Assembly: GCA_963971405.1 (NCBI GenBank)
Contig: OZ020488.1
Span: 6,265,261-6,329,260, forward strand
Length of the DNA: 64,000 bases
Direction of reading: 5' to 3'
From: Psococerastis gibbosa
Taxonomy: Eukaryota > Arthropoda > Insecta > Psocodea > Psocidae
In this document: positions 7,006 to 33,819 of the stretch, in pieces
How the letters are laid out: the number at the start of each line of letters is the position of its first letter
Position numbering within the stretch: the stretch's first letter is position 1
Notes under the pieces: model-generated
Databases searched by the model: none
Told to the model about the DNA's origin: nothing
What the model saw: only the letters and a program-made list of their open reading frames with translations
Program-made: the position numbers and the translations under genes

Positions 7006-7032
7006 GGACCGAGAAATTAATTAATTAGCTAA

Positions 7033-8195
7033 GGCGCCCATTCCACCGACCGGCTAGGGCTATTTCCAAAAACAGTGACGTGGTAGCAGACATTCAAGAC
7101 TTAGGTTGCGTTTTTCATGGCTTCATGGACATGGCAAAATCAAACCACATGAGAATTTTTCTCTGAATAATCCAAATTATGGCTACATTCAGAAGCCCGT
7201 ATTCTCTAACATGATGCTTTACAGGGGCTATGTAATCCTGTCCCACTGCAGCAATGGAGATAGTACTGGACTTCCCACCCCTCCATGTTGCAGTGGAAAC
7301 TTCTGCAGAAATGGCATTACTAGGAGTGGAAGGGCAATTAAGAGAGACTCAGCCTCTCTGACTACGTCTGACCACTGCCTGGATATGCCAAGCGATAGAA
7401 TCCATCCAAAATACTGTTTTAGGAGGGAATTCGAAACTATATTAGGGACAATGAAAGAATGCTGCGAATCAGCAGGAATTCTCAATAGTCACACAATCAA
7501 GTGGTATACTGATGGCTCTAGGCTAGGAAGTACCAAACCAAGAACAGGCCTTGGCGTCTTTGGTCCTGGGGTTAAATATCTGGAGTCTCTTAGGGAGACA
7601 ACTATAGTCTTGCAGATTCTGCAATGAAGGTGCGGAGGACCTGCGATGCGATGCGATGCAATCGCACGAAGAAGAGCAGCATGCTCGGAAAGCTTGCAGT
7701 TACATGTAAAAGACCTACCACTTCTGAATCCCCTCAAGATCCTGGCTCTCGTGAGGGAGATAGGCCTCGAGAAAGTGATGTAGAAGTGATGTAGATACTT
7801 TGTTGTAGGGGGCACAATAGGCCAATAGGCTTAAGTGCACACAGGTAACACCTGTACCCCAACTTATATAAAAAAAAAAAAAAAATAGGTTGCGTTTCCA
7901 CCGATCTCGCATTGCAGAATGCAAATGACATTGACGGAAATTAGAATTTTTCTTTTTATCGAAATCTATTAAAATGTTTGTACTTAACATATCCCACGAC
8001 GGCATTTTTTAATTTTAGTTTGTTTGTTTGTGATTTTACTCTATGATCATTGATCAATTTTAACTATGGCATAGAGGAAAATAAACATTTCCGTCAATTC
8101 TGCGAGGTCGGTGGAAACGCCACCTAAGTCTTGAATGTCTGCTACCACGTCACCGTTTTTGGAAATAGCCCTAGCCGGTCAATGGAATGGGCACC
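7033..8195. mobile_element. MITE A1 (Harbinger-like), split by a LINE
   Basis: Terminal inverted repeats GGCGCCCATTCCACCGACCG and its complement (ending at 8195) extend about 170 bp into each arm. TAA lies directly outside both ends (7030-7032, 8196-8198), the target duplication used by PIF/Harbinger elements. There is no transposase frame. Without the 772-bp LINE insertion (7114-7885) and one copy of its 12-bp duplication, the element would be about 380 bp, like its relatives at 23.8, 27.8 and 30.9 kb. Confidence 0.8.
7114..7885 (+). mobile_element. RNase H LINE deletion derivative, copy 1
   Basis: The frame 7106-7627 contains IKWYTDGSR, the first catalytic block of a LINE RNase H domain, then GLGVFGPGVKYLES. 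The rest of the domain is missing: after TTIVLQ the DNA jumps to a downstream CNEGAED/CDAIARRRAA region that in a longer copy (10472-10883, minus) lies far beyond. The 3' UTR ends with the palindrome ACAGGTAACACCTGT and poly(A) (7871-7885). TAGGTTGCGTTT is duplicated at 7102-7113 and 7886-7897, a perfect 12-bp target duplication. The reverse transcriptase is absent. RNase H suggests the I/R1 group of LINEs. Confidence 0.85.
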
Positions 8196-8227
8196 TAACA
8201 CCCCATGTTGTTTTTAAAATTTAAGAG

Positions 8228-8578
8228 CAGGGTTTCCCGACCTTTTTTTGTCCGTGGACCACTAGATTATTATTTTATAATTTTCCATAGACCACCATGG
8301 CTGTGACAGAATATCGTTAAATTCTAGGACCAAGATTAGGTAGTTGGTGTCCACGGATACGTGCTAATATTTGATTAAATGGTTAGGACTGCCATCGGCT
8401 GGATTTTATCGTTCAGTGCCAAGTTTTAATATATTTTATTTCAAATTTCCAATAACTCAGGCTTCAGCTGTTTTATTTTCTTACAAGTATTTCTTACTTA
8501 GGCCCTGAAGTGTGTATGTGGACCACTGGCTGTTCATGGACCACAGGCTGTTCATGGACCACAGGTTAGGAGCCCCTG
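8228..8578. mobile_element. hAT-like MITE
   Basis: The ends CAGGGTTTCCCGACC and GGTTAGGAGCCCCTG are imperfect inverted repeats, followed inside by TTTGTCCGTGGACCAC and repeated TTCATGGACCACAGG. CAG...CTG ends with a 'gtccgtggaccac' interior are well known from hAT non-autonomous elements. The 8-bp flanks TTTAAGAG and CTCTAGTG match poorly, so the copy is old or the ends are slightly off. Confidence 0.6.
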
Positions 8579-9059
8579 CTCTAGTGTGTGGACATTACAT
8601 GACTGGCGGGCATTCCAACACATATGGCAGGTTCGCATGAGAAAGCCCCGTTACAAAAAGGGGGTGGCAACCTTACATAAACGTAATACAAGTGCCAATA
8701 AATTTACCTTATCAGAAGGGCATTACTTTTAAGCACTATACATTTTGTCAACGTGGTATCGAGTCAGTGAGTGGCACGTAGTAATGGTCCAACATAGCTG
8801 ATTTATGGATCCCATCCTATGTTAAGTATACATTTTCGTTTTTTTTTTTGTAGTTGTGTTCTCATTAAGCGTTATGTATGGCGCACTGCACCTTATCATA
8901 AACCAACGATCCCATTCATTGCTTTCCTGTTTATAAGTTTGTGATGATCGACATTTTCGACTTCGAGATTTCAACGGATTTAAAAGTTTCGAGGTCCAAG
9001 GCCGTAGCCAGGATAAAAAAAGGATTAAAAACCAGGAATACTAGATTGAAAACTTTAAT
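8579..9059. other. Spacer with one isolated transposon end
   Basis: No gene. At about 9000-9016 GGCCGTAGCCAGG matches one end of the H fold-back family (16022, 47721) without a partner nearby. Confidence 0.4.
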
Positions 9060-10883
9060 CAGTGTCATATTTTTTATTTTATTTTTTATTGGGGTACAGG
9101 TGTTACCTATGTGTACTTAATATTGGGCCTATTGTGCCCCCTACAACAAAGTATCTACATCACTTCCTCGAGGCCTATCTCCCTTAGGAGAGCCAGGATC
9201 TTGAGGGGATTTAGAAGCGGCAGGTGACTTTAAGAAGTACCATATTGTGACTCTGCCAAAGAAAGAAGGAGCAGTAAAATGTGAGCACCATCGAACGCTA
9301 AGTATAATGTCACACGCCTCGAAAATCCTCACAAATATTATGCTAGATAGAATTGAGCCGGTTATAGATAGAAATCTAACACACGACCAATGTGGCTTTA
9401 GGAGTGAGATAGGGACAAGAGAAGCGATTCTAGCCTTACGTTTAATCCTGGAAAAAAAGACTAAAAAAGGGTAAAGACACCTATATTGCATACGTAGATC
9501 AGGTAAAAGCATTTGACAAAATGTTGTGGAAAAAGTTGATTGAGAATTGAGGAAATCCGGGCTGAAATACAAAGATAGAAAAATCATATGGGCCCTCTAC
9601 AAGGAAGAACTGGCTATCGTCCGGTGTGGCGACTCAGAAGAAGAAACGGTAATAAAAGCCGGCGTAAGGCAAGGATGCTCACTCTCCCCTGTGTTGTTTA
9701 ACCTCTACATTCAGTATGCAATAGCAGAGATAAGAGAAGATCTGGAAGGTACAAGAGGTATACGAATGCCCGGGAAAAAAACAGATATGGTCAGGTATGC
9801 ATTGCTATGTTGGCAGAAAACGAAGAAGATCTGACCGAAGCTCTAAATGCCATGGAAAATTTACTACAAGCATACAACATGAAGATTACCAGGGCAAAAC
9901 CCAAAGTGATGGTAGTAAGTACTGACCCGAACAAGAGCACAAATATACATTTAACTGGCACTCCCATTAACAACGTCAGAACATTCACATACCTAGGAAG
10001 CAAAATTACCTCTGATGGCAGGTCTAACCAAGAGATAGAGTTGCTCTGTACGGATGTGAAACGTGGTGCATAAGTGAAAAACAACTCAAGAAGCTAGAAG
10101 TATTTGAGATGGATGGTGTTGTCGGCGCATGCTACGAATACCTTTGGCAAGCCCATGCTACAAATGAGGACGTTCTAACCAGAGTAAGCGAAAAAAGAAC
10201 TCTCCTTGCATCTATAAGTAAAAGAAGAGCTCAATAGATTGGACATTTGCTTCGACACGAAAACTTCATAAGCTGTAACTTCATAGAGGGAACAAAGGCG
10301 TCAACAGACCTGGGCGCCCAAAAAACGAGTATCTGCAGCAAGTGATGGAGGATGTAGGGGCCAAGTCATACGTGGAGCTGAAGAGGGCATGCCAGAATCG
10401 AGGGGAGTGGAGGGGCATCGAAGTCACATGTTGCTGCCAACCAGCCATCCGGCTGTAACTTGAAGAAGAAGAGGTGTTGTACATGTAACTGCAAGCTTCC
10501 CAAGCATGCTGCTCTTCTTCGTGCGATTGCATCGCAGTGAAGGAGGAAATGCTCGGGGTCCTCCGCTCCTTCATTGCAGAAGCTCTAGACTCTCGTGTCA
10601 CCTATGTTAGTCAGATGTCCATTCAAGTTGCAATGCCCATAAAGGAAACCTGTGATCACTCGCAGATGTCCCCTGTTCAAATTAATGCATTCTTGGGCTC
10701 TTTTGAGCTGGTGGCTTCCCAGGAGAATTTTGGCTTGCCGAAGGCCCGGCAATGAGGTCCAGTATTCAGCCACTTTCAGGTTCTCCTTGCCTTTAACAAA
10801 TCTGCGGGGGAGGGTTTCCCCGACACCGCAAAAAGGTTCCCATAAATGGGGAGGTAGCACCCCTTTTTGCAAGCTGGTAGGAT
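9060..10883 (-). mobile_element. RNase H LINE, longer copy, split by RTE 1
   Basis: Two pieces, 9060-9225 (3' UTR and C-terminus) and 10472-10883, form one minus-strand LINE separated by an RTE insertion. The upstream piece codes for PPHLWEPFCGVGETLPRRFV, SLPGLRQAKILLGS and NRGHLRVITGFLYGHCNLNG, the region after RNase H in I/R1-group LINEs. These parts are missing from the derivatives at 7114 and 25815. The reading frame is broken near 10540-10600. Its upstream end abuts RTE copy 2. Confidence 0.7.
9226..10471 (+). mobile_element. RTE-type LINE, copy 1, 5'-truncated
   Basis: Reverse transcriptase blocks are in order: TLPKKEGAVKCEHHRTLSIM, AYVDQVKAFDKMLWKKL, VRQGCSLSPVLFNLYI (about 9664-9711), MLAENEEDLTEALNAMENLL, then TFTYLGSKITSDG and a C-terminal RTLLASISKRRAQ-IGHLLRH. 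The catalytic YADD is lost: about 7 bases are missing after ATGCA near 9797, removing both aspartates and shifting frame. Stops also occur (9472, 9548). The element ends in GAAGAAGAAG. AGGT is repeated at 9222-9225 and 10472-10475. The endonuclease region is absent. Affinity to RTE rests on motif resemblance. Confidence 0.8.
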
Positions 10884-11336
10884 CTTCTTCAAGTTACAGC
10901 CGGATGATGGCTGGTGGCAGCAAGATATTGCAGCGATGCCTCCAGTCTCCGCGATTTTGACATGTCCTCTTCAGCTCCACATAGGACGTTATCCCCAAAT
11001 CATTTTTAACTTGTTGGAGATATTCGTTTTGCGGCCGTCCCCGTCGATTTACGCCTTCCGTCCATTCAATGATGCAGCTGACTAAGTTATCATGCCGAAG
11101 TAGGTGTCCGATCCAGCGTGCCCTCCTAGTGGATATGGATGCAACAAGGGTACTTTTTTTCATTTATTTGGGGTTGGGACTCATTAGTTACATGGTCTTG
11201 CCAAGGTATTCTCAAAATGCGGCGATAACACCACATTTCGAATGCTTCTAGTTTCTTGACCTATTTTTCGCTTATGCACCATGTTTCACATCCATATAGT
11301 AGAATGCTCCACACAAGAGACTTAAGCATTCTTTTC
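10884..11336 (-). mobile_element. RTE-type LINE, copy 2, 3' end only
   Basis: The minus-strand frame 10894-11163 reads STRRARWIGHLLRHDNL, EWTEGVNRRGRPQNEYLQQ and SYVELKRTCQNRGDWRHR, the C-terminus of the same family as copy 1 and better preserved. The tail CTTCTTC lies at the left edge. CTGGTAGGAT is duplicated exactly at 10874-10883 and 11337-11346, a 10-bp target duplication, so this is a 453-bp 5'-truncated insertion beside the RNase H LINE. Confidence 0.85.
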
Positions 11337-11346
11337 CTGGTAGGAT

Positions 11347-11711
11347 AGTTAGTTCAATTAATAATCATAGCGATCTCGATCCACTTGCACAAATATTTAT
11401 TTTGTATACTAGGTATAACTAACTATCGTACATGCATACGACTTTGCTTTAGTGTAATTTAATGTAAGCACTATTTCTGGAACCACATCTGTTGATGGTA
11501 CAATATATGATCTATTTATTATTATTAAAGCTTTTGAACCTGCCTACGAATTCCCCCATTAGTCCTTATCAAGGACAGATATGCTGGTAAGCAGGGTCAA
11601 CAGTCGGATCCAGTAGTGCATGTATTTTTAAATATCCCGTGTTATTGTGCAATCACCCGCTAGCCGCCTACAATAACCAACTGGTTTTCCATTCACCAAA
11701 CCAAGCATCAG
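11347..11711. other. No gene recognised
   Basis: Spacer. The segment 11341-11440 contains partly inverted TAGTTAGTT/AACTAACTA motifs but no complete element was recognised. Confidence 0.35.
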
Positions 11712-12346
11712 CAGCCCGATCATGGCGATTTGGGATTAGGCGGCTATTCTACTTGTCATTCTTTCTTAATTTGTGCATTAAAAAATGATACGATTTTTTT
11801 TTAATGACACTATTATGTAGAAACTTAACTTATCTATTATAAATTAAGTTATATATGGTAGAGACTTATTACTGTTGTATATCTATCATATTATAACTTA
11901 ATTTATAATAGATAAGTAAAGTATACACATAATAGTCTCCTTAAAACCAAAATCTCATCATTTCTTAATGCACAAAAGAAGAAAAAATGACAAGTGGAAT
12001 AACCGCCTTATTATGATACTGGGGTTTATTTTCTAATACCGCGGTAGTAAGGTGTCACGTGGCACTGATAAAGTATGCGCGGGAAATTCAAATTTATAAA
12101 TTATTAGAATTATTAGAATTAGAATGGTTGCATTGTTTAATAATTGAAGGAAATACTAATAAACATATACAGGTAGAATTTTAAAATATAATAAGAATTT
12201 TAATTAATGTGTCTACACCTAAAGGAGAAAAAAAATGGAAAACTCACAAAACATTAATTTATCAGTTTGAATTTGCAATTTTGCAATTGTTTAAAACAAT
12301 TGAATAAACACCAGTATATAATAATCCCAATTCGCCATGATCGGTG
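11712..12346. mobile_element. MITE B3, host of a nested MITE
   Basis: Begins CAGCCCGATCATGGCGATTT and ends in the degraded complement near CGCCATGATCGGTG. The interior GGGGTTTATTTT and GCGCGGGAAATTCAAAT match MITE B2 (48992-49374). It is interrupted at 11739-12007 by a family A-like MITE. The right terminus is eroded. Confidence 0.6.
11739..12007. mobile_element. Harbinger-like MITE A9 inside MITE B3
   Basis: Ends GGCGGCTATTCTACTTGTCA and the near complement at 11988-12007; TTA lies directly outside both (11736-11738, 12008-12010). The centre is a second palindrome around AACTTAACTTATCTATTATA. It is 269 bp long with no coding capacity. TIR style and TTA duplication tie it to family A. Confidence 0.75.
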
Positions 12347-12555
12347 ATGAGCAGGATATTTATTATCCCTTTAAAATTCACATAATTTTTTTCTGCGTAA
12401 GTAGAGAATCAGTCATCAGAAACACATGCTTACTTGCTTCACTGTTTCTAACCCCCCTCCCTCCCCCCCCCCCAGCTAAGGAAAGCAGCTGGGTAGTGTC
12501 AGGGACGGATCCAGCGCATTTGGGAAAGGTTAGTTAGTTAGTTAGTTTCTAACGC
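12347..12555. other. Spacer with C run and isolated repeat end
   Basis: No gene. A run of C at about 12457-12471 and GGGACGGATCCAGC at 12507-12520 look like the end of a G/C-run fold-back family also seen at 34626. Confidence 0.35.
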
Positions 12556-12895
12556 CTGCATTCAGCATTTCTGCTTTAAGCAACCCTGTTAGCCTGGCGG
12601 GGGGAGTGAGTCTGTTTGTTAACTTGAGGCACCCTAAGGGCAGACTCTTTCACCTCGGGGAAGGGGGAGTTGACTAACAGGGTGGACCTCCTGATTATAG
12701 TGGATTCCGAACCACTTGGGGAACATGGTAAAGTCACACGATTAAATCGGAGGTGACCAGGACTCGACTTATACTGCCTAAGCGAGTTATCATGTCCCAC
12801 CAGGTTCCCCTGCCAACGCTGTGCACACTACCAAGTTGCCGCAGTTTGAAACATGCTCTGCTCTAATGGAATCAAAATGGTAAGGCCATTGGCAT
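12556..12895 (+). repeat. Interspersed repeat S3, copy 2
   Basis: Near-complete S3 unit from about AGCATTTCTGCTTTAAGC to a TGGTAAGGCCATTGGCA end. It has small deletions relative to the copy at 28.9 kb. Confidence 0.6.
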
Positions 12896-12935
12896 TTGGG
12901 AAAGGAGCATTGTTGGTCAAAATAGAACCAACTTA

Positions 12936-13113
12936 GGCGGGTATTCCACAGGTCAAATTTCCCGTCAAATGTGATTATAAACAGTCTGCTACCATATTTT
13001 AACTTAATTTATAATAGGTAAGTTAAGTATCTACATAAAAGTCTCCTTAAATGAGGTTTTCCGTCAATGACAAAATCAAATTTGAAGTAAAATTGACCAG
13101 TGGAATACCCGCC
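12936..13113. mobile_element. Harbinger-like MITE A8
   Basis: GGCGGGTATTCCACAGGTCA at the left and its partial complement ending ATACCCGCC at 13113. The left flank is TTA and the right ATA, close to a TWA duplication with one change. Interior TTTAACTTAATTTATAATAG is shared with A9. Confidence 0.65.
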
Positions 13114-14716
13114 ATATGTAGTATTGATTAAATTATAGCGTAATAAATTAATTGGTTGGGGGGGGGGGGGCAGCTACCCCTTCTGTATCCATCCATGGGT
13201 AGTGTGGGGTTGGAGCATCCTCAACCCATTAAATTCAACGATAATAAAATATAATAAATGGCGCCTAGCCATAAGCTAAGTATGGCCGACAGCGGTGAAA
13301 CGTTCAATTGTAGTGGAAATAATGTGACCAAAGATATTAAATAGAATATATGGAACCGAACCATAAGTGATGTAAGGCCAATACCGGTGAAAAGTGAGGG
13401 GAAGTGCGGGGAAATAGCAAAGGAAACGTTTTCACGTTGCATAGGGTTCCAATATAAAAAATGAAAATGCTGGCAAAGGAAAAACAAATGAAAAATTCAA
13501 CAGGAGCCCAAGGCCCCAAGTAGCCAAACGGCCCAAACCAGCTCTTATATGGAAGTGTTAATGGCAAACTAATCAACTGCCGAATTTTTCGGTTACCCCC
13601 ATCAAAAATGCAAAACCTTCCATAAGTCAGTAATTAAAATATAAACATTTCAGAATTGCTTATACATATATGGGTACTGTATACACCTGACTTCAGCATC
13701 AGCGTCCACTAAGCTAACTGCTGCGACAAAGTGACTAAAAAGGAATGCAACGGGAAAATGGCTCAAAGCTAAAGAAAAAACAAATAAATGCATCAGAAAA
13801 TGAAGGAACGACGAATTAAACCAACAAATAAAACGCCATTTTCATCAAATAAGGCACAGTCACTTAACGGTAGAAAGATCAAAGGCATTATGCAAAAAGA
13901 GGTATAAGGCTAACAATTTTTATTTTCAATTTCGTCACGGCTGGAAATTTAATTTCTTTTTTATACTTCAATTTTAGCATTTTCATTTGGGTAGTGGAAA
14001 CTGCAAATAACCTACCGTACCTTTCACCTGAAGCGCACTCAACTATTCACATCAAGAGTGTTGATGCATAGAGCTTGAAATATATTTCTTTAAAACACCT
14101 TCACAGTTCCATTGATTAGAACACAAGTAAAGAACAACCCGTACATGCTTTCTGACTTATCATTTTTTTTTCTTTTTAAAAAAAGGTTAATGGCATTAAA
14201 CAATTTTATGCTATATACAAACGTGCTGACTTTTTCGTGAGCCTATAATTAATTACAGAACGCTGAATTTTAAGCAATAAAGCTTACCTGAGGTAGTCCA
14301 TATTAATATGTATAGTTTGAACGCAAATAAATAGGCCTTTTAGGAAAAACAACACATCGATAATTACTTAAATATTAAATTTAAATGCACACAAACGCGA
14401 AAAAATCAGTAAAAAGTCAGTTAGTAGAGGTGGTTCTTCAGCCGTTCACTGGAACATAATCCTACACGATTTATTTGAACGTTCTACTTCCACCGCGCCA
14501 GGGCGGCCTTGCAACCAACGCAAAACATTGGAATTTGTTTCAAATAAATCACAGCTCCCAATGACTAATAATAAATTACAATATATTAAATTTTGTTTGC
14601 ACTTTTTGTGCTATTAAAAGACAATTTTACGCCATGAAACAAACTTTAACTATTGTATCAAGTGGAATGCTACCTAGTGGGTTATATTTAACACTAGTAA
14701 GTACTACAATATTGTA
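13114..14716. other. No gene recognised; longest plain spacer
   Basis: About 1.6 kb, AT-rich, with a G run at 13158-13170. Minus-strand open frames at 13221-13576 are unrelated to any motif I know. I could not find a second copy in the window, so this may be unique host sequence or an old single-copy repeat. Confidence 0.35.
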
Positions 14717-15254
14717 GGGTCTTCACAGTGTTCGTGTTATCGAGTTATACCTAGTTAAGTGTGTTATATCCGCTAAGTTGGCTTAGTAATAGAACAAAAA
14801 AGTCGATATTTATTTATTTATTTATATCAAGCTAAGTTAACAGACCGATAACCCGATAACCAGCTAACCAGCGTGCTATCCTAACCCACTTCCAAGTTGG
14901 TTAACGTGTTATTTACTCAGGTTTGACCGCCGCCATCTTTGTTTTTTGTCGATTGATTTGAAAAAATTTGCAGTATTTAAATTTATTTGTATAATTTATT
15001 ATCACAAGCAATTACCGTAAATACTTAAAATTATAATAACCAAAATGAACAAAAAATATAAACAAATATGGCACTAGAATAGAGTTCTGCCACTTTCTTT
15101 AAACGCGTGCCACGAACGTCTGACTATTACCACGTTGTTTACTCAGTTAACTGTTTTCGATATAGCATGATAACTCACTCCTGAGGTCCACTCACGATTG
15201 TGTGTTAACTTGAATAGCACATCTAACTCGATAACACGAACACTGTGAAGACCC
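14717..15254. mobile_element. Fold-back MITE C1
   Basis: Ends GGGTCTTCACAGTGTTCGTG and its complement at 15235-15254, with further arm matches around GTTATCGAGTTA. A partial second copy is at 15963-16285. The centre carries part of SINE S1 (about 14775-14830: GGCTTAGTAATAGAACAAAA). The target duplication is unclear. Confidence 0.65.
14775..14830 (+). repeat. SINE S1 3' fragment inside MITE C1
   Basis: GGCTTAGTAATAGAACAAAA and a tandem ATTT tail match the SINE S1 3' end at 3150 and 19855. The head is not visible, so this is a truncated insertion or a gene-conversion remnant. Confidence 0.45.
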
Positions 15255-15520
15255 CTAATATGTGAAATTAAATGATATCTTCAAAGCCGTTTATGAGAAA
15301 ACATTTTCTTAGTCGTTTTTGGCGTTTTTTTGGGGGATATAAAAAACAAGTAAGAATGAAGAAAGAAAAAAAATCTGGACAATATTTTTGAGAACCTACA
15401 TACCGAATTTCATCAAATTCATCGAGTTACAGACAGACATTTCGTACAAACCACTTTTTGGGGGTTTTTGAGACCTCATGTAAGCAAGCCCACTGAAATC
15501 TAGAAATTTACGACTGGCAC
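15255..15520 (-). repeat. R850 fragment, copy h
   Basis: Recognisable blocks TGAGAACCTACATACCGAAT, GAGTTACAGACAGACATTTC and AACCACTTTTTGGG match the R850 left portion in minus orientation. The rest of the repeat is missing. Confidence 0.5.
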
Positions 15521-15529
15521 AAAGCATTC

Positions 15530-15700
15530 CTCCATCTTCTTCTGGCTTTACAGCTCTTGATGAGCCTTGGTCTGCTCGACAACACTCCTCTTGTGCAACG
15601 CTCCTCCATCTACGGACTCCCAACTCGCGAAGGTCAGTTTTCAACTCATCCTTCCAGCGTTTTCGAGCATTCCTTATAGAACGTATAAATATGAAAGTAA
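15530..15700 (-). mobile_element. LINE C-terminal fragment (RTE-like)
   Basis: The minus-strand frame has RNARKRWKDELKTDLRELGV and RRWRSVAQEECCRADQG. The pattern 'RPRKRWKDEL...DLRELG.RRW..VA' is the C-terminal tail of RTE-like LINEs. Relatives are at 18520-18735 (plus), 19085-19300 (minus) and 59520-59760 (plus). Confidence 0.6.
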
Positions 15701-15962
15701 AAACGAGCGTTTTCACAGCGACTTAATTTTTACACACAATCTGTCTCAGTTAACCACAAACGCGAGCCTATAGCCAAGCTAATATTTTTTTTCTACCAGT
15801 ACCTTGCGGTCATAACCGATTACGGAGGTAACCACAAGCAATCTGTGAGCCTGCGCTGAGATGTCACGGCTACAAATGTGAGTTCACATCGGTTGGAAGA
15901 TTGAGCAATTTCGAGAATGGCTAATTTGGTCATTCGAACAAATACGAAAGGCATGATTCAAA

Positions 15963-16287
15963 GGGTCTTCACAATGTCGGTGATATCGAGTGATATAGTT
16001 AGAAGTGTTATCTAAGTTCAAGGCCGTAGCCAGAGGGGGTCCGGACCCCCCCCCCAAATATTTAAATATTTGCAGCGTACACTAGATAGAATGGAGTTTT
16101 AAATATATTGAGGTTAACTCACCACTGGTGGACGTCAGGTGGACCCCCCCCATTAAATTTTTTTGCTACGGCCATGGTCAAGTTTACACACAATCGTAAG
16201 TGGACCTCGGGGTTAGTTAAATCGAAAACATTTAACAGAGTAAAAAACGTGGCAGTATTCAATTCTAGTGCCACGTGTGTCTATATT
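15963..16287. mobile_element. MITE C2, partial, host of element H1
   Basis: GGGTCTTCACAATGTCGGTG at the left matches the MITE C terminus and TGCCACGTGTGT lies near the right edge. It is split by the small fold-back H1 (16022-16173). The right terminus is missing, apparently cut by R850 copy c. Confidence 0.5.
16022..16173. mobile_element. Small fold-back element H1
   Basis: GGCCGTAGCCAG at the left and GCTACGGCC at the right are inverted, with G/C runs just inside each end. The same ends bound element H2 at 47721-48347. TCAAG occurs near both junctions, but the exact target duplication is uncertain. Confidence 0.55.
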
Positions 16288-17386: not shown

Positions 17387-17518
17387 TCTTCTTTTTGTTT
17401 CATTCGTTTATTCTATTTTTATGTATTTCCAGCATTTGCTTATGTCATAATAAATTATAAAAATTGAGTATAACAATAATAATTGATACTACTTTGTCAA
17501 TCAAGACCATTTTCCTTA

Positions 17519-17680
17519 GGGGGGTATTCCATATACGTACAACGTCAATGAAAAATTGAAAAATGACGTTTTAGCAGACATTAAAGACATACTAAAAATT
17601 CTGCTACCACGTCAATTTACGTCATTTTGACGTCATTTTTCAATTTTTCGTTGACGTTGTACGTATGTGGAATGGGCACC
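17519..17680. mobile_element. Harbinger-like MITE A6 (162 bp)
   Basis: GGGGGGTATTCCATATACGT and the complement ending at ATGGGCACC form long inverted arms, including ACGTACAACGTCAATGAAAA. TTA flanks both ends (17516-17518, 17681-17683). A close relative is A7 at 41886-42027. Confidence 0.8.
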
Positions 17681-17683
17681 TTA

Positions 17684-18344
17684 ATGAAGAAGTAGGTTCT
17701 TGCAGGAATTCAAAACTTTTTTTATGGCTCGATTTTTTCAGCTGGAATATCATAATAACAACACACTATTAACATTTATTGCTCTCTGTTAGTCTTTTAT
17801 TGCTAGCATGTGAAATTTGTAAGCAAGTTGTACTATTGTACCTAGAATATGTTTTTCAACAGTTGTTTTAAACAAAATCCAATTCCACAGGAAACATCAA
17901 CCGTAGAGATAAAAAGCCTCATTAATTAGAAGAAATGTTTCTCTGCACTCTGATATGTACTATTTCACTATCACCAATAAGCCACGATTTTGGGATTCCT
18001 TTCATCTCCGATATCGTCTTTCACTTGATTTATGTACCCCTTCCTCCAACTCTCCCACCTATTCCCCCTCTATTCTCTTCTGAATGGCAAACGGGACCTT
18101 ATAAATCAATCAAAACAGGCTTACTACGGCACTGGCAGGTGTTTTCCTCTAGCAATACCCCTGTAGGTACGCAGGTACTCGTGACTTCAGACACACGGCA
18201 TCCACCGATGACTCAGCTGTTCAATTAAGTCGGATAGCAAAATGCCCGCCTGACCGCTTTGCAACAAAATATTCAGCCTCTCTCTCCTGTACATTGACTG
18301 AGTAAGACGATAATGGGCGAGTTCTAAGTAGGTAGGTCATTCAC
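17684..18344. other. No gene recognised
   Basis: AT-rich spacer. The plus-strand frame 17935-18228 is proline-rich without motifs and I do not support it as a gene. Confidence 0.35.
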
Positions 18345-18465
18345 AAATCCTGGAAGACACCTTAAGACGAGCCAGGCTCTCGTCAGTAGAGGTTCTCCAG
18401 ATTATGTGTTGTATTGGGCTGCAAGAACGCTGATGGCGGAAGCCTAATGCTATGGTGTAATTTAA
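18345..18465 (+). repeat. Unclassified repeat X, copy 1
   Basis: ACACCTTAAGACGAGCC, CTGATGGCGGAAGCCTAATG and the trailing GTAATTT recur at 44340-44485. It resembles a LINE C-terminus plus 3' end but I cannot place it. Confidence 0.4.
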
Positions 18466-18519
18466 AAAAAAAAAATTCACCGAATAACAACATCGAAATT
18501 TAGAATTAGTTGTGCTAAA

Positions 18520-18735
18520 GAAAGAAAGAACTAAAGAAAGGCGCAGAAAGCGTCATGCTGGAGAAAGGGAAGACGACTGCAGGGACGCCCACGAAACCGC
18601 TGGAAGGACGAATTCGAAGCCGTCCCCCGTGAGTTGGGAGCCCCCAGACGGTGGAGCGTCGTGCCAAACCAAGATGACTCGAAAAGGGATGTCGAACAGG
18701 CCCAACCAAAGGCTCTACGGAGTCGGAGAAAAGAA
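18520..18735 (+). mobile_element. LINE C-terminal fragment (RTE-like)
   Basis: GRPRKRWKDEFEAVPRELGA can be read across 18580-18640, followed by RRWSVVPNQDDSKRDVEQA, and then a purine-rich AAGAAAAGAAGAAGG tail. Same family as 15530 and 19085. 5' truncated. Confidence 0.6.
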
Positions 18736-18784
18736 AAGAAGAAGGATGGCGTCACGACGAAACGTTTTCATGTTAGAGAACTAG

Positions 18785-19084
18785 ACTATCAACCGAAGGT
18801 TTGAGGTTCCAGATTCAACATTACGTAAAGGAAAAAGCTTTCCGCCTGACCTGGGTCCCTCCTAACCTTACCGTCATCGATAGGGGAAAACGCGGCGGTC
18901 GGGGCGTTGGAGACCACAACACCCAAATAGAGCCGTGATCAAGAGATAGAGATGGGCCTCAGACTTGGGTAGCAGTGCCGCGGCGTTTTCTATTTTATTT
19001 TGACAAACACGGACCATGAAGGGAAAAGACTGTACCACTCTTCTTGCCACCTGCCACACCAAGTAATATTAGCCAAAATGTAAT
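18785..19084. other. No gene recognised
   Basis: Spacer of 300 bp with no motif or repeat I could assign. Confidence 0.3.
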
Positions 19085-19300
19085 CTCTAGGGCAAGCTTC
19101 CTCTTTTCCAACTGGCTCTACAGCCCTTGATGGGCTCTAGCCTGCTAGACAACACTCCAATCATCTCGGTTTTGTACAAAGCTCCGCCATCTACGGACTC
19201 TCAACTCACGAAGGTCAGTTTCCAACTCATTCTTCCAGCGTTTTCGAGGACGTCCCGCCAGTCGTCTTCCTGTCATGCTTTGTACATCTTGTTCGGGCAA
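19085..19300 (-). mobile_element. LINE C-terminal fragment (RTE-like)
   Basis: Complementary to the family at 18520 and 59520: CTTCCAGCGTTTTCGAGGAC corresponds to the 'RPRKRW' coding block on the minus strand, and GCTCCGCCATCTACGGACTC to the following 'RRWS' block. 5' truncated, tail near 19090. Confidence 0.6.
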
Positions 19301-19619
19301 GCTACACTGCGCAATAATATACAGCGATTAGCTTAAGTAGAGCAGCTGCTGGTACTAGTAGTAAACGCGCAGGTAGTGATTCAGGCACAGGTACCATGGC
19401 TTCCCTCAAACCTAACAATGAATGAAGTGTGGTAAACCAATACTTCCTTTAAAAGCAGGAGACATAGCTAACCATCCAGAGATAATTAGGTCCATTACAA
19501 ACCCCTGATTATGTGTAACCTCTATCACCGCGTGCACAGTGTTTGGACAGGATAAGATCAGGGCATGTATAGGTAGAGTAGTGGTACAGACTCTGTAGAC
19601 ATCTATGTTTGATGACAAA

Positions 19620-19714
19620 ATTTATAAATGGTTTTTGTGTGTTTATTATTGACGATTGCCGAAAGGACTGTTTTTGTGTCTTAATGGATCAATAAATTAT
19701 ATTCTATTCTATTC
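19620..19714 (+). mobile_element. LINE 3' tail with (TTCTA)n
   Basis: GCCGAAAGGACTGTTTTTGT, AATGGATCAATAAATTATAT and a TTCTA tandem tail. The same tail type closes the LINE ends at 43612 and 43962. It appears to be inserted near the 5' part of the SINE that follows. Confidence 0.45.
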
Positions 19715-19890
19715 TTTCACCTGTAGGGTTCGAGTCCCACACTTGATACTTTTTCTGGTCATGCTTCGGAGGGCATGTAAAACAGGCGGTCTTCGCGCCT
19801 TCGTAGTTGAGTGTAAGAGAGGGCTTCATAGCCCTAACTCCGCTTCTGGCTTTATAGTAATAGATCAAAAAGTCATTCTTTATTTGTTGT
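19715..19890 (+). repeat. SINE S1, tRNA-related, copy a
   Basis: GGGTTCGAGTCCCACAC (about 19726-19742) is an excellent pol III B box. It is followed by GCTTCGGAGGGCATGTAAAA, TAGTTGAGTGTAAGAG, GGCTTCATAGCCCTAACTCC and TAATAGATCAAAAAGTC. The same order appears at 58500-58660 and, reversed and split, at 54470-55430. The A box region is not clear, perhaps displaced by the LINE tail upstream. Confidence 0.65.
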
Positions 19891-20224
19891 AATGGACTAC
19901 CATTCGACAACAACAATTGATATCTGTGCTTCGCAGAGAATCAAATATCACAGGAAAACTTAGTCGTAAAGCTAACAATGATGATTTAATATTGTAAATG
20001 TTGTTGTTTGAATTAATAATAAATTTTGATTTGATGTCACAAGCAAGAAATGTTCCCGTACATTTCGATATAGGATTTTTCTTGTGTTTGTTTATCTGAT
20101 GATGGATTGTATCCGAAACTGTGGATGATTGCAATCTTACTTCTCCCTAAGAAATATATCATTTGGCCGCCTCAAAGACCGATAGGCTACAGTTTTGGAA
20201 GGTTTCGGAAGATATATTATTCTT

Positions 20225-20320
20225 ATTATGAAAAGAAGACTTTATAGTCTTATTGTTCGCCTTTTTTTTTTTGCTTTTTTGTTGCAATAAAATCGCTTTC
20301 AATTGAATTCAATTAATTTT
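20225..20320 (+). mobile_element. LINE 3' tail, same family as 40421-40950
   Basis: GAAAAGAAGACTTTATAGTC followed by TTATTGTTCGCC and AATAAAATCGCTTTCAATTG matches the 3' UTR at 40826-40905. AAGACTTTATAGTCTT is a perfect hairpin palindrome in both. The tail is ATTCA-rich. Confidence 0.55.
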
Positions 20321-20530
20321 CCACACGTCTTAGAAGAAATGCTTCTCGGTATTTTCATACATGATTTGTGCCTGTTTCTAACACTGTTTGGCCATGATTA
20401 CTGAACTTAGTCTGTAAAAAATGACAAGCAAAGAATATGTCAGAAGGAAGGAGTTCAAAAACTAAGGTGCTAGTGACATACCATGTAACAAACTGTTGAG
20501 GAGCATTTCTTCTAAGGGGATGTGTAATTT
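20321..20530. mobile_element. Fold-back MITE-like element
   Basis: CACACGTCTTAGAAGAAATG at the left is inverted at the right as AGCATTTCTTCTAAGGGGAT, with small mismatches. It is about 205 bp, without coding sequence. The target duplication is not clear. Confidence 0.45.
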
Positions 20531-20799
20531 TTTTACAGCTGTACAATGAATGTTTCCAGTGAAACTGAATTTGTTAAGCAACTGACATTGGGGGTGTCCG
20601 ATTTGCTCATAATGTACAGATTTCAAAATATTTTGTAAAACAAGTGTACTGGAAACGTGGAATTTTGAAGAAAATTACTAAAATCCTCATTTCACATCCC
20701 CAAAGATATAAAAGTGGCACGATGAAAAATTCATAAAAGTAACAAGGAGAAAAGTTACATTCCCAAAGGAGAACAAAATCCATGTTGCCGAGAAGCGTT

Positions 20800-21175
20800 T
20801 TCAGGTCGTGAAGGTCATATGGGCTCACCCTGAAAGATTGCCGCCGAAATGAAGACATCATCAGGTTGGAGATTAAGACTGCTGATGTCACTCTGAAAAT
20901 TGAGAAAGAAGGCTCGGCAGATAGCCTGGAGGAGGCACGTCCAGAGGAGAGACTAAACATCTTTATTAAAGCATATACAAAACATGGCACTCCCAGGACA
21001 TCGCCCCTGGGGAGCCCGAAGACGACACTCCTCAGAAAAATCGAATACTACCTGAGGACTCTCGTCCTAAACAAAGAAGACGCTCTTAAAAGAGCTGTCG
21101 GTCCAGAAACGCTGCTGCCGTGTCACCGGCCCACCGTCAAGACAAAGGCAACGCAAAAGTAAAAGTGAATAAAAA
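20800..21175 (+). mobile_element. LINE C-terminal fragment
   Basis: The frame 20866-21162 has SPKTTLLRKIEYYLRTLVLN and KEDALKRAV, close to the 'GRPKTTLLRKIEYDLRTLGL' tail of a LINE polyprotein; a related tail lies at 23105-23500. Upstream residues EEARPEERLNIFIKAYTKH are acidic and unassigned. Confidence 0.5.
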
Positions 21176-21689
21176 CTCGATAAAGTGCATTAAACAAATT
21201 TGATAGAATAGTACATTAGTAAATCATTATGGGAAATAGACAGCTTTTAGAGAAACCTTGCATTTTCCAAGAATTTCTCATCTGACTACTTTCGCAGCTT
21301 TGCAATGATAAATTACTAAATTTCACAAAAATACTAAATCATCCGTTGTTTACAAAATAATATGAAATCTCTCCCTTAATCCGTTAATCGGCAGCGAAAA
21401 TGTAAAATAACGGTAACTACCTCAATTCAGTCATGCGACGCAATTTCATCGCCCCCCCCCCCTTCCTTGGGGTGCACAGCTTTAAGCTAAATCAATATAC
21501 CCGATCGACACCCCCATTTCGTCACTTGCGAGTGTGAAATAGGGGTAGAGGGGTTGTAATATCTGATTTATCATACCAAATCAGCACGCACCCCTGTGTT
21601 GCGGTGGCGACAGTTGCTGCTTATGACGTTAAATATATAGTGTTGAAACGCCTTGTTTATAACTTTTCATCAGCGAAACCCATAATATT

Positions 21690-21902
21690 GTTTGCCTGGT
21701 AAAAAAGAAAACAGACCCATCGACAGACCGAGGACAACCCTCGAGGAAAGGATTGAACAACTCGCCGGAACAAGAGGGAAAACAATGGCCGAGCTCAAGG
21801 CGTTAACGTCCGACCAGGTCGAGGTCAGGAAATGGGTTCAGGGTGACCCCCCCCCCACGCTGCGCACGCGGCATTAAGGGGGAAGAAGAAGAAGAAGAAG
21901 TA
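21690..21902 (+). mobile_element. LINE C-terminal fragment with (GAA)n tail
   Basis: RPIDRPRTTLEERIEQLAGT then ALTSDQVEVRKWVQGDPP resembles a LINE C-terminus; the DNA ends in a C run, GCGGCATTAAGGGGG and (GAA)n (21883-21900), the tail type used by the RTE copies at 10461 and 10884. Confidence 0.5.
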
Positions 21903-22959
21903 AAAAAGAAAACCGAAATAAAATACTTTATTTCACCATTACATTGCAAAATTAAAAAGAAATAAAAATAACAACAATCGCAGCACCTAAAAAAACATTT
22001 CCATTCGTCCCATATCATTACCATGTAGCAATGACAAATGAAGAAGAAACAAAACTGTTGCAGTGTGCCTCCCCTAAAAATGGAAATGACCAGAAATAAA
22101 ATACAATTGGAAAAATTCCAATCCAATCCGGCCAAATCTTTTCACCACTGCGCAATGAAGAAGCAAACACGGATGCACTTAATGTAAAAAAAAATCTCCA
22201 TAGTGATTAATGAAATGAAAAATAATAATATTATTTTATTGTGTTGTTCACCTGGCCAGATAGCTTGCCCCCCCCCCCCCCCGATTATTGAAAGACCCCC
22301 TGTAAAAACTGCATGAAACAAACACTGTACTGTCTAAAAGTCCTTCAAAAACCGTTCGAGGTACATATGCTATTTACGGACTATCAGCACACTATTTTTA
22401 CATTCATGCAGACACATTAATATCGGCCTTTGAATCACAATAGAATACATAGCGAGTGTGTATAATTTAATAACCTTTACAACCATTGAAGCCTGAACAC
22501 TCATGCAACAACGAACTCAACTCAACAATCATTCCCTGCAACACATTCATTATTATCAGATTACAGAAAACAATACCTCACGTTAGTTGTACTCCAACCA
22601 TTACCGAGAAATGTGAACAGGTCTTTAGTAGAAAACTCTTTTCAATCATACCGCAAATCCCTCAAAAGAATAGTGGTATTAAGCCACTTGAGACGGCTTT
22701 TAAGATTTAAGATTGCCACTGTATCCTTGAGAGTCTTTGTATTGCACTATTGTACAAGGAGTTTTATTATTAGAAATGCAAGAATTAGCAGCTCTCCTGC
22801 AGTTTCAAGTATACAATGAATTGTATTTTCTTTCTGAATGCAGTTTATGTAATTGAGCAAATTACAACAGTTCAATATAGTAGAGATGAGCCATTCGCTC
22901 CGGCCAACGATATTTATTTGTATTCACGGTGCCACCCGAACCATATTTTTGGATCAATC
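21903..22959. other. No gene recognised
   Basis: About 1 kb of AT-rich spacer with a C run near 22268-22282. Short plus-strand frames (22486-22819) show no motif. I found no second copy in the window. Confidence 0.35.
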
Positions 22960-23075
22960 AGAGTTTCAGTCAATTGATTGTAAATTTGAGATCAGCTCTA
23001 CAATGCGGCACGGCGTCAAATGGCCTGCCAGCCAAGGACAGCAGCAGCAGCCGCCGCAGAAGAAGAAGAAGTAGT
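22960..23075 (+). mobile_element. LINE 3' fragment with (GAA)n tail
   Basis: ACGGCGTCAAATGGCCTGCC and CAGCAGCAGCAGCCGCCGCAG lead into (GAA)n. A related GGCGTCAAATGGCTCTACTG lies at 23550. Both suggest LINE C-terminal coding ends, but the frame is too short to assign firmly. Confidence 0.4.
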
Positions 23076-23104
23076 AATAATATCATTTATAATTGTTCCG
23101 TAAT

Positions 23105-23500
23105 ATTTTTACGAAGTTACTTACTTTTACTTCGCTCAATCCTCATGGAGGATCGGCGTCACGACAGCAGCGTTTCCACACAGTCCTGTTGCGTGCGTCC
23201 TCGGTTGAGAGCCCCAAACTTCTCATATCTCCGGCGATCTTTCTTCTCAGTGTAACTTTCGGCCTCCCTGGCGGTCTTCTTCCTTGTATCTCCCGGTTTG
23301 TTACTCTTTTGACTAGTTGTTTTTCATCTCTGCGTAGTACGTGTCCCCACCAGTTCAGCCTCTTTTCTCTCAGTTTCAGTTCCGTCTCGAGACTGGCCAC
23401 GACTACCTGCAGGCACACCTCTGCCGGTTCTTTCGTCGGGGTGACTGAGATGTGTGTCCCCTCTGCTCCTCCGGGACCATGGTCGCAAGTCACCTACACT
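23105..23500 (-). mobile_element. LINE C-terminal fragment, long open frame
   Basis: The minus-strand frame 23143-23493 (116 codons) reads LNWWGHVLRRDEKQLVKRV, GRRPPGRPKVTLRRKIAGDM and STEDARNRTVWKRCCRDADP, a well-preserved LINE C-terminal domain. The conserved tryptophans and the basic 'RPPGRPK' block are kept. No reverse transcriptase core remains. Confidence 0.7.
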
Positions 23501-23782
23501 CAAGCATCTACCTGCTGATCTAACAAAGAGATACTGGGAGGCTCGGCGTCAAATGGCTCTACTGCCACAGACGGGCGTGGGCTTAACTAAACTAACTATC
23601 TCTCAGTTTCTCCTATACGTCACATGTTCTCATCTCATGCCCTATGTCTTGGTTTCTAGGAAGGTCTCTCAGCATTCCACAGCAGGATCTTCCAAGCATT
23701 CACATTTCTGCTGCGTGTATACAATATTTTTACTACGTTATTTTTATTATAATACATCCAGTACACTGTATCATTCCATTAA

Positions 23783-24151
23783 GCGCCCATTCCACCGACC
23801 GGCTAGGGCTATTTACAAAAACAGTGACGTGGTAGCAGACATTCAAGACTTAGGTTGCGTTTCCACCGCATTGCAGAATTGACGGAAATGTTTATTTTCC
23901 TCTATGCCATAGTTAAAATTGATCAATGATCATACAGTAAAATCACAAACTAAAATTAAAAAATGGCGTCATGGGATATGTTAAGTACAAACATTTTAAT
24001 AGATTTCTATAAAAAGAAAAATTCTAATTTCCGTCAATGTCATTTGCATTCTGCAATGCGAGGTCGGTGGAAACGCCACCTAAGTCTTGGATGTCTGCTA
24101 CCACGTCACCGTTTTTGTAAATAGCCCTAGCCGGTCGGTGGAATGGGCGCC
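23783..24151. mobile_element. MITE A2 (Harbinger-like)
   Basis: Long inverted arms from GCGCCCATTCCACCGACCGG to the complement at 24151. One G of the left terminus is lost. The flanks are TTAA and TTAG. The centre contains GATCAATGATCATACAGT. No transposase frame. Confidence 0.8.
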
Positions 24152-24159
24152 TTAGCATA

Positions 24160-24759
24160 ATAGCCAGTCTGTCTACCACAAAGACTCCTTTAGAAGCAAA
24201 CAAAGATGAAGATAAGCTGCGATGTTTTGTGCAGTTGACAATGCACAACAACAAAATGTGTGGGCTCCCATTCAGTGCCAGCGCATGAATACGTAATGAG
24301 CTGAGAGCTCGGCCCTAATTGTAATCAAGTCCCCAGGCACATTATGAATTTATGGACAACTCGCGTGCCCCACTAATTTACTACTCCTTTTAAGGGAATG
24401 CTCCATATAGAGCCCATTACTAGAGTGTTGTTTGTTGGGCAAAACAGAGAAAAATGACGAGAAGGTTCACAGCGGGAGTCCATTTAGGAAAAATATTCAA
24501 CCAACTCTAGTCTGGCAAGCACTATTTCAGAAAAGACACATCATTACATCATTCTACAGTATAATAATAAATAAATAATAAATATTAACTTTTTTTGTTC
24601 TAACAACAGTGCTGTTAAAGGCTCAATAACAGAACGCTCATACAACATATTTTAAATTATTTATTAGTAAATTATTATTAATTACAGCTTTCATTATTTT
24701 CCAAGAGCATAAATGTCACAAGTCCCATTTTATTGGAATCAGGAACGGTGGCCTAGGAT
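24160..24759. other. No gene recognised
   Basis: About 600 bp of AT-rich spacer with no confirmed repeat. Confidence 0.3.
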
Positions 24760-25425
24760 ATTTTGAAATTAAAGTGTGAAATAGTAGGTACATTTAAAAA
24801 GTTGTAAATTAAAAAAAAAAATCTTCAAAACCAAAACTTTGCTTTGGAAAGCGCCCTGTTCTGTTTTGTTACTCCATTCATCACCTAAAGCTAAAGCATA
24901 CCTGCAGCCTGATCATGGCGATTATAATATCGGTATTTCTTTAATACCAGGGGATTAAATAAATACCGGTATTATAATCGCCATGATCAGGCTGCTGAAG
25001 TTAGAAAGCATCAATAGAATGTTTCATCAGAAATATTATTTTTCAAATATTTTTGCATAAAAATAGAGCCTTTTTTATTTTTTACGGCCTGCACATTGTC
25101 ATAGGAGATGCGGTCGCTAGCTAGTGGGGTTTGTTCACATTAATAAGTCCCAAAATATTATTTGGAAACATATAATTAGTTTTTTTCTGTGGCACAAAAC
25201 CTAAAACCTAAAATGAAATTATCCAAAAATTGGAAAAATACCACTGAACAATATTTTTGTGCCCCTACATGCCGAATTTCATCAAATAATAGTTGAACCC
25301 AAATCGAGTTACAGACAGACAGACAGTAAAAACCACTTTTTTGGTTCCTAGTCCCTCAAAACGTGTAAATCCGCTGGAATCTCGAAATCGAAAATTTGAA
25401 CTGTCCCCCAGCTTTCCATCAACAT
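24760..25425 (-). repeat. Divergent R850 copy g, split by MITE B1
   Basis: TTTTGTTACTCCATTCATCA, AAGCATACCTG / AAGTTAGAAAGCATCAATAG, then TACATGCCGAATTTCATCAA and ACAGACAGACAG match the R850 order. A 90-bp MITE sits between CATACCTG and AAGTTAG, which are adjacent in other copies (4465-4480). Confidence 0.55.
24905..24994. mobile_element. MITE B1, 90-bp perfect fold-back
   Basis: CAGCCTGATCATGGCGATTA and its exact complement at 24975-24994; arms total about 34 bp with one mismatch around a tiny centre. CTG is present at 24902-24904 and again at 24995-24997, while uninterrupted relatives have it once, so the target duplication is CTG. Related longer copies are B2 (48992-49374) and B3 (11712-12346). 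Confidence 0.8.
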
Positions 25426-25767
25426 ACACAGGAAAGTAACAATGTTAAATATGGCATGGAATATTTATTTTATGAGTCGCTGACAATGGATTATGAAAGG
25501 CCGCAAGGTGAGGAAATAGAGCATAAGCGAGCTGTCACAAACGTATATAAAATACTGCCCGTCAACACGCAGCCAATTTTTACCACACCCTCTGTTACTA
25601 CGCCACTAAGACCCATGTTCAAAAATGGACAACTTTCCAAAATAACACAAACATGGCGGGCCTCAGCCTCGCTGTCATTGGCACGGCGCATCCTCATACT
25701 CATCTAATGGAGTCTCTGCCACCATCTGTTTCTTCTTCTTCTTCAAGTTTCAGCAAGTTACACAGGT
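25426..25767. other. No gene recognised
   Basis: The plus-strand frame 25396-25707 has no motif I know. A (TTC)n stretch occurs at 25731-25745, possibly the reversed tail of an RTE-like LINE. Confidence 0.35.
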
Positions 25768-26610
25768 ATTATGTGCAGAGGCGACGGAAGAGGTTATTCG
25801 GATACATTCATTGATTTTTTTTTTTTTTTTAAATTGGGGTACAGGTGTTACCTGTGTGCACTTAAGCCTATTGGCCTATTGTGCCCCCTACAACAAAGTA
25901 GTACATCACTTCTACTTCTTCGTGCGATTGCACCGCATCGCAGGTCCTCCGCAACTTCATTACAGAATCTGCAAGACTATAGTTGTCTCCCCAAGAGACT
26001 CCAGATATTTAACCCCAGGACCAAAGACGCCAAGGCCTGTTCTTGGTTTTGTACTTCCTAGCCTAGAGTTAGTTAGTTTACGTGTCCGGGCCATCAGGAC
26101 ACGTTCCGCCAGAAAGTTGCGGCCAGAGCCTAGAGCCATCAGTAAACCACTTCATTGTGTGACTATTGAGAATTCCTGCTGATTCGCAGCATTCTTTCAT
26201 TGACCTTAAGATAGTTTCGAATTCCCTCCTAAAACAGTATTTTGGATGGATTCTATGGCCTGGCATATCCAGGCAGTGGTCAGACGTAGTCAGAGAGGCT
26301 GAGTCTCTCTTAACTGCCCTTCCACTCCTAATAATGCCATTTCGGCTGAAGTTTCCACTGCAACATGGAGGGGTGGGAAGTCCAGTACTATCTCCATTGC
26401 TGCAGTGGGACAGGATTTCATAGCCCCTGTAAAGCATCATGTTAGAGAATAAGGGCTTCTGAATGTAGCCATAATTTGGATTATTCAGAGAAAAATTCTC
26501 ATATGGTTTGATTTTGCCGTGTCCATTAAGCCATGACCAATGGTATGGTTACAGCAGGAAAAGACAGGCTGGACATTCATTGAATTGTTTGCATGTAAAT
26601 AATTAAAAAT
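25768..26610 (+). repeat. SINE S2 3' part, split by a LINE derivative
   Basis: AGAGGCGACGGAAGAGGTTA then ATACATTCATTGA (to 25814) continues after the insertion as ATTGTTTGCATGTAAATAAT (26584 on). This matches the S2 3' region at 29500-29560 reversed. The head is missing. Confidence 0.6.
25815..26572 (-). mobile_element. RNase H LINE deletion derivative, copy 2
   Basis: The minus-strand frame 26078-26440 gives MMLYRGYEILSHCSNGDSTG, MKECCESAGILNSHTMKWFT then DGSR, matching the copy at 7114, including the same internal jump after TTIVLQ. A further deletion removes part of the C-terminus (near 25918). It ends in poly(A), seen here as a T run at 25815-25830. ACATTCATTGA is duplicated at 25804-25814 and 26573-26583 (11 bp). 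Its 5' end reaches about 30 bp further than copy 1. Confidence 0.85.
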
Positions 26611-27701: not shown

Positions 27702-27761
27702 TGCTTTATTATGGGGTTTCCAACGGGCCTACTATAGCGATTACTACTGTATTAATCATAA

Positions 27762-28138
27762 GGTGCCCATTCCACCGACCGGCTAGGGCTATTTACAAAA
27801 ACAGTGACGTGGTAGCAGACATTCAAGACTTAGGCGGTGTTTCCACCGACCTCGCATTGCAGAATCGACGGAAATGTTTATTTTCCTCTATGCCATAGTT
27901 AAAATTGATCAATGATCATACAGTAAAATCACAAACAAACATACTAAAATTAAAAAGTGGCGTCATGGGATATACAAACATTTTAATAGATTTCTATAAA
28001 AAGAAAAATTCTAATTTCTGTCAATGTCATTTGCATTCTGCAATGCGAGGTCGATGGAAACGCCACCTAAGTCTTGAATGTCTGCTACCACGTCACCGTT
28101 TTTGTAAATAGCCCTAGCCGGTCGGTGGAATGGGCGCC
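27762..28138. mobile_element. MITE A3 (Harbinger-like)
   Basis: GGTGCCCATTCCACCGACCG to the complement GGTGGAATGGGCGCC. TAA flanks both ends (27759-27761, 28139-28141). It is 377 bp with arms of about 170 bp and no frame of its own. It lies only 60 bp from the Harbinger remnant. Confidence 0.85.
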
Positions 28139-28141
28139 TAA

Positions 28142-30795: not shown

Positions 30796-30945
30796 AAAAA
30801 TCAAGTACTATATGAATAATGGATGCATGTAAGTAGACTATGGAAGTATGAATGTGTAGCTAGAAATAGAATAGAAATATATTCCCCAATGTACACAAGT
30901 TACTTGTATCTGCAGTTTAGTGTAAGAAAGGGCCATTGGCCCTAA

Positions 30946-31325: not shown

Positions 31326-31388
31326 TAACTATGCTGCTAATAAAGACTATAATTTCTAATCTTTATCCAAAGCCTTAAACTAAGAGAA

Positions 31389-32355: not shown

Positions 32356-32356
32356 T

Positions 32357-33681: not shown

Positions 33682-33819
33682 ATCAAACAATGGTTAGAAA
33701 AAAATAGATTATCGTTAAACCTGGAAAAGACCGTATTTGTTGATTTTTCGTCAAAAAGAGACGCTTGTACCAACAACTTGTCCATAGAAAACATAGTCCA
33801 AACTGAAACACGAAATACT

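Follow-up and report, generated by a model that had tools for sequence, protein, structure and literature searches.

Two LINE copies with a common internal deletion junction and separate target sites in Psococerastis gibbosa

We analysed a stretch of 64,000 nucleotides from contig OZ020488.1 of Psococerastis gibbosa (positions 6,265,261 to 6,329,260 of the forward strand; hereafter the window), a repeat-rich sequence with 38.9% G+C and no N. It contains two internally deleted copies of a long interspersed nuclear element (LINE), termed c1 and c2, which both pass from the start of an RNase H-like domain directly into a region encoding CNEGAED. Two related fragments, c3 and c4, serve for comparison, and a MITE-like (miniature inverted-repeat transposable element-like) repeat forms the host of c1. 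We tentatively take the element group to be I/R1/LOA-like, i.e. an RNase H-bearing LINE. The positions and strands that an initial annotation of the sequence had assigned to c1 and c2 proved accurate; together with the other features, they are collected in Table 1.

Table 1. Coordinates of the two internally deleted LINE copies, their parts and the repeats used for comparison (numbering of the window)
Feature	Position	Strand	Basis or remark
c1, LINE copy truncated at its 5' end and internally deleted, with A tail	7114..7885	+	
c1 target-site duplication, 12 bp, TAGGTTGCGTTT	7102..7113 (5') and 7886-7897 (second copy)	+	global alignment
Reverse transcriptase C-terminal-like stretch, CFTGAM..PTAAMEIVLDFPPLHVAVE	7115..7361	+	putative, by motifs
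RNase H-like domain start, WYTDGSR..TTIVLQ, cut off at the junction	7502..7616	+	weak Pfam match
Common deletion junction in c1	7612..7620	+	right side starts TTCTGC at 7617
Site of the common 20-bp deletion, then extra GCGRT units	7640..7659	+	by-eye parse of sequences and alignments
11-bp tandem duplication, AGTGATGTAGA twice in c1, single in c4	7774..7795	+	
c2, the other internally deleted LINE copy, also with A tail	25815..26572	-	
c2 target duplication, 11 bp, TCAATGAATGT	26583-26573 and 25814-25804	-	
Common deletion junction in c2	25967..25969	-	equals c1 7615-7617
c2 private insertion, 67 bp = 58 bp (26126-26069) + 9-bp repeat	26060..26135	-	direct repeats CTCTAGGCT, ends in AACTAACTAA
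c3, related LINE fragment, 412 bp, retains sequence absent from c1 and c2	10472..10883	-	
Two inverted copies of another repeat, 73% alike, closely enclosing c3	10046-10469, 10883-11299		each ends TAACTTGAAGAAGA towards c3
c4, related LINE copy represented by its 3' end; lacks the 11-bp duplication	9068..9225	-	
MITE-like repeat of ~390 bp, at least five copies	7032-8196 (with c1), 23779-24155, 27746-28142, 30942-31329, 37552-37931		

At the junction, c1 and c2 both read ...ACTATAGTCTTGCAG ATTCTG[C/T]AATGAAG..., and global alignment crosses this point without a gap (c1 ACTATAGTCTTGCAG-ATTCTGCAATG, c2 ACTATAGTCTTGCAG-ATTCTGTAATG). The two breakpoints thus coincide to the base, as had been claimed, and are not displaced by even a few positions. 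The deletion is carried by both of the two copies in the window that span the two sides of the junction. Left of it, the reading frame runs to WYTDGSRLGSTKPRTGLGVFGPGVKYLESLRETTIVLQ and then through ILQ into a stop codon; right of it, the frame is shifted by one and gives CNEGAED. Altogether, c1 and c2 differ by 23 substitutions in 651 aligned bases. Such differences occur near the junction on either side (7592, 7622 and 7630), so that no homogenised tract lies right at the junction.

The fragment c3 begins to match c1 at TTCTGC (c1 7617 = c3 10581), the gapped BLAST match reaching 10591. From TTCTGC we counted 90 matches and 9 mismatches, a figure in which some indel edges appear as mismatches owing to the placement by the aligner. 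Nothing in c1 corresponds to the remaining 292 bases of c3 (10592-10883; score 19 versus a shuffled mean of 18.7 and maximum of 25), and c3 therefore holds sequence that is absent from c1 and c2. This part encodes EPFCGV..QAKILLGSHQLKRAQECINLNRGHLRVITGFLYGHCNLNGHLTNIGDTRV, followed by a stop that is c3's own and then by SFCNEGAED. Putatively, EPFCGV..QAKILLGSHQLKRAQECINLNRGHLRVITGFLYGHCNLNGHLTNIGDTRV belongs to the end of RNase H and the tail that follows it in LINEs of the I/R1/LOA-like group, an assignment not confirmed by Pfam. In the initial annotation, c3 had been described as a longer copy retaining the sequence that the deletion removes. It does retain sequence lacking from c1 and c2, but it is not longer than c1 and stops short of the left breakpoint. 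We also considered c3 as a plain LINE insertion and rejected this, because it has no LINE 3' end (nor an A tail) and is enclosed by inverted copies of another repeat.

Besides the junction, the only such change named in the initial annotation, c1 and c2 have three further indels in common relative to c3 and c4, of which c4 did not figure in that annotation. The 20 bases that follow GGAGGACC in c3 are missing from both copies, and at the same site extra GCGRT units are present relative to c3, two in c1 and one in c2 (all parsed by eye). Alignment programs place the gaps at this site differently; the net length relative to c3 is -10 for c1 and -15 for c2. The third indel is the 11-bp tandem duplication, of which c2 keeps the joint, GTAGAAGTGATGTA, despite a deletion just upstream. 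Across 95 columns of the 3' region including the A tail, c1 and c2 agree against c4 in 10, c1 stands alone in 3, c2 alone in 1, and 81 are alike. Among 74 columns of c1, c2 and c3, which include unrelated bases left of the junction, 18 are common to c1 and c2, 0 and 3 are private and 53 are alike.

Private changes bear on the relation between the two copies. A deletion of 106 bp is specific to c2; since c1 keeps these bases, parts of which are also found in c3 and c4, c1 does not derive from c2. Conversely, the first 36 bases of c2 (26572-26537) are absent from c1 and have no other match in the window (E up to 1e-3), which makes a direct origin of c2 from c1 unlikely. The 58-bp insert of c2 could itself stem from a retroelement, inserted in very short form. 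We rejected the idea that it duplicates some other repeat of the window, where matches to it were limited to words of 9 to 11 bases.

Both copies display the features of LINE insertion by target-primed reverse transcription, namely target-site duplications, an A run at the 3' end and 5' ends that differ in the alignment. That each copy has its own duplication in an unrelated host, as stated in the initial annotation, was borne out: the duplications were found, and self-BLAST of the window (E up to 1e-8) confined the pairing of c1 and c2 to the interior of the element. The host of c1 is a repeat of ~390 bp with inverted ends, which c1 splits. When the c1 flanks are joined (omitting the second copy of the duplication and two further bases), they align along all four other copies of this repeat, with 370 to 379 of 379 bases spanned. 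We read three of these copies at the empty site, and all three run CTTAGGTGGCGTTTCCA uninterrupted in matching orientation. That c1 is an insertion is therefore well shown. For c2, the case for an insertion is built on the target duplication, the A tail and the lack of matches between the flanks. An origin of the pair by segmental duplication was rejected, since the flanks have no BLAST match (E up to 1e-8) and the 500-bp 3' flanks score at shuffle level (the local score was reached by 117 of 200 shuffles).

On these grounds (one junction, three more common indels, different target duplications, unmatched flanks and the empty site of c1), we consider it probable that c1 and c2 were inserted separately, each by target-primed reverse transcription of RNA from a single LINE lineage that already carried the deletion. 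Most of the RNase H domain and a portion of the C-terminal region would have been missing from this source lineage, possibly through a TGCAG microhomology, and it would have gained the other three indels later or at once. The deleted source would then have been transcribed and inserted at least twice. The protein of an intact relative may have copied the source RNA in trans by way of the common 3' end and A tail, and either c2 or a sub-source would have lost 106 bp more. As for the earlier proposal of a non-autonomous LINE-derived family, the single deleted source behind both copies is well supported by the junction, the indels, the duplications, the unmatched flanks and the empty site, whereas its non-autonomous nature, judged from the reading frames, is likely only, and a family, with two copies known, is no more than plausible.

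A non-autonomous source is suggested by the frame shift that the junction causes inside RNase H and by the stops that the copies have in common in the putative reverse transcriptase (RT) frame. We assigned this frame to the stretch CFTGAM..PTAAMEIVLDFPPLHVAVE presumptively, by its motifs; the peptide has no Pfam match and yielded 0 matches in the PDB. Within an ungapped block of 410 bp, the assumed RT frame is interrupted in both copies by stops at 7164, 7212 and 7359, and in c1 only by a further one at 7233; all three c2 stops are hence present in c1, although the one at 7359 may fall after the frame change. As the block contains no gap, c1 and c2 also have in common the change of frame ahead of RNase H. 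These observations speak against the possibility that c1 and c2 are ordinary 5'-truncated cis copies of an autonomous LINE subfamily without RNase H, as does the frame shift at the junction with its stop after ILQ. We regard such an origin as unlikely. It draws some support from the fact that no parental 5' end was recognised in either copy, which leaves both silent on the source's endonuclease and on the greater part of its RT. Two further points in its favour, the openness of the RNase H frame and the distribution of substitutions over codon positions, are among those that count against our reading.

That reading has to be weighed against several such points. Across the RT-like stretch, both c1 and c2 keep the RNase H frame open, and in c1 it is open from 7079 to 7627. 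Openness of this kind was unusual when bases were shuffled (39 of 5000) and less so in synonymous re-draws, which preserve the RT protein (346 of 5000), or with the codon order shuffled (157 of 5000); it weakens the argument from the stops. If the RT frame is wrong, the stop argument falls, while the agreement of the indels stands. The 16 substitutions in the 410-bp block distribute over codon positions 1, 2 and 3 as 2, 1 and 6 in the RT frame and as 4, 1 and 2 in the RNase H frame. Third positions thus hold 6 of 9 RT-frame differences (binomial p about 0.04 by our own arithmetic). This excess agrees with the RT frame being the coding one; at the same time it hints at some constraint on the source, contrary to a long-dead one, and so leaves room for a coding source. 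The RNase H assignment itself is below threshold: WYTDGSR..TTIVLQ matched positions 4-26 of 141 of Pfam RNase_H with E 0.3 and 11.7 bits (cut-off 25.8), and it did not appear for a longer query containing this stretch, whose single entry was a Tachystatin_A match below threshold. In the PDB, the RNase H-like peptide retrieved 5 sequences (E 0.84 to 2.7), none of them an RNase H. For the 500-bp 5' flanks of the two copies, the local score is slightly high: 28, whereas shuffles average 20.3 and reach 28 in 2 of 200 cases. Finally, only two copies are known, and the collections searched gave no relative (for the PTAAME pattern, none among the matches listed).

Other histories of the pair fit the data less well. 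It is very unlikely that c1 inserted in undeleted or less deleted form, decayed in place and then served as template for c2, so that a deleted element was copied once. Such a course would suit c1 containing all of the c2 interior except the c2 insertion and first 36 bases; these 36 bases, however, are unlike the upstream flank of c1 and, as noted, unmatched in the window. Gene conversion could have spread the junction between two copies that lie ~18 kb apart in the same region, but it would have to account for three other common indels and for the differences near the junction on both sides, and we hold it to be highly improbable. The junction could alternatively result from splicing, with the RNA of an intact LINE source producing it anew on each occasion; its upstream edge reads TTGCAG, and human LINE elements can be spliced, as mentioned in the helena paper (PMC2330053). 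Splicing leaves the other common indels and the stops unexplained, and upstream of the right edge c3 appears by eye purine-rich rather than as a pyrimidine tract; we give this explanation hardly any credence. Independent deletions at a hotspot, for which the possible TGCAG microhomology could be invoked, are extremely unlikely given that four separate indels agree.

Retrotransposition of a deleted LINE source on two occasions would be an ordinary event of a known pattern. In Drosophila simulans, copies of the LINE-like element helena that have the same indels cluster in the tree, and the authors suggest that indels preceded amplification and mention help in trans (PMC2330053). Similarly, c1 and c2 carry four common indels in separate insertions with different target sites. 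The helena data comprise many cloned sequences from several populations, in contrast to two copies of another element in another host here, and the likeness is one of description. Short internally deleted elements (SIDEs) are a second point of reference. R2 and R2/R1 SIDEs are considered to rely on the R2 or R1 machinery (PMC3414825), and Persaeus is a SIDE of the CR1 element Zenon in Lepidoptera (PMC6740152). By these accounts, SIDEs keep the parental 3' end (PMC3414825, PMC6740152). Like them, c1 and c2 would be internal-deletion derivatives of non-LTR (non-long terminal repeat) elements. The region of Zenon in which the deletions occur is flanked by a 5-bp direct repeat (PMC6740152), to which the possible 5-bp microhomology at the c1/c2 junction may be compared. 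SIDEs are, on the other hand, short and have their 5' end joined to the 3' end (PMC3414825, PMC6740152), while c1 and c2 show no recognised 5' end and, unlike SIDEs, still carry RT-like and RNase H-like sequence. With no 5' end in view, c1 and c2 cannot be filed as SIDEs. TbRIME and Ag-Sponge, named in PMC3414825, are set beside c1 and c2 by description only.

Spreading lineages of deleted LINEs are called rare in two papers on SIDEs (PMC3414825, PMC6740152). If many copies do carry the four indels, the present lineage would be one more case; the two copies alone are a clean small example of how a deletion can be placed before transposition. It is conceivable, though doubtful, that they represent an abundant, recently active LINE subfamily of this genome without RNase H and also without its C-terminal CCHC-like region, shortening stepwise (c2 sublineage) towards a SIDE.

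Searches for relatives were made in several collections. In the viral contig collection, a 21-mer of the junction and a 19-mer from the 3' region each had 0 matches, and the c3 peptide gave 9 pattern matches, none of which was confirmed. A degenerate pattern for TGHCxLNxHL was matched 0 times in the viral contigs and at 19 loci with bacterial titles in the genome contig collection. The pattern for PTAAME hit at least 120 stretches of the viral contigs, with no relative among the matches listed. With tblastn, three peptides run against 139 loci yielded nothing convincing; the best match (E 0.012, locus L085) overlaps, in another frame, a stretch called DNA methylase by Pfam. A literature search for four LINE peptide words gave 0 papers. 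As regards a pol III head of the SINE type (derived from tRNA, 7SL or 5S), the window has no tRNA according to ARAGORN and no Rfam match at gathering score, in copies that do not show the true 5' end of the source.

Elsewhere in the window, positions 31353-34274 contain open frames of 253, 362 and 155 codons that by eye resemble another LINE's endonuclease and reverse transcriptase. Additionally, a tandem array at 45823-47521 consists of 5.1 copies of a 333-bp unit with 99% matches.

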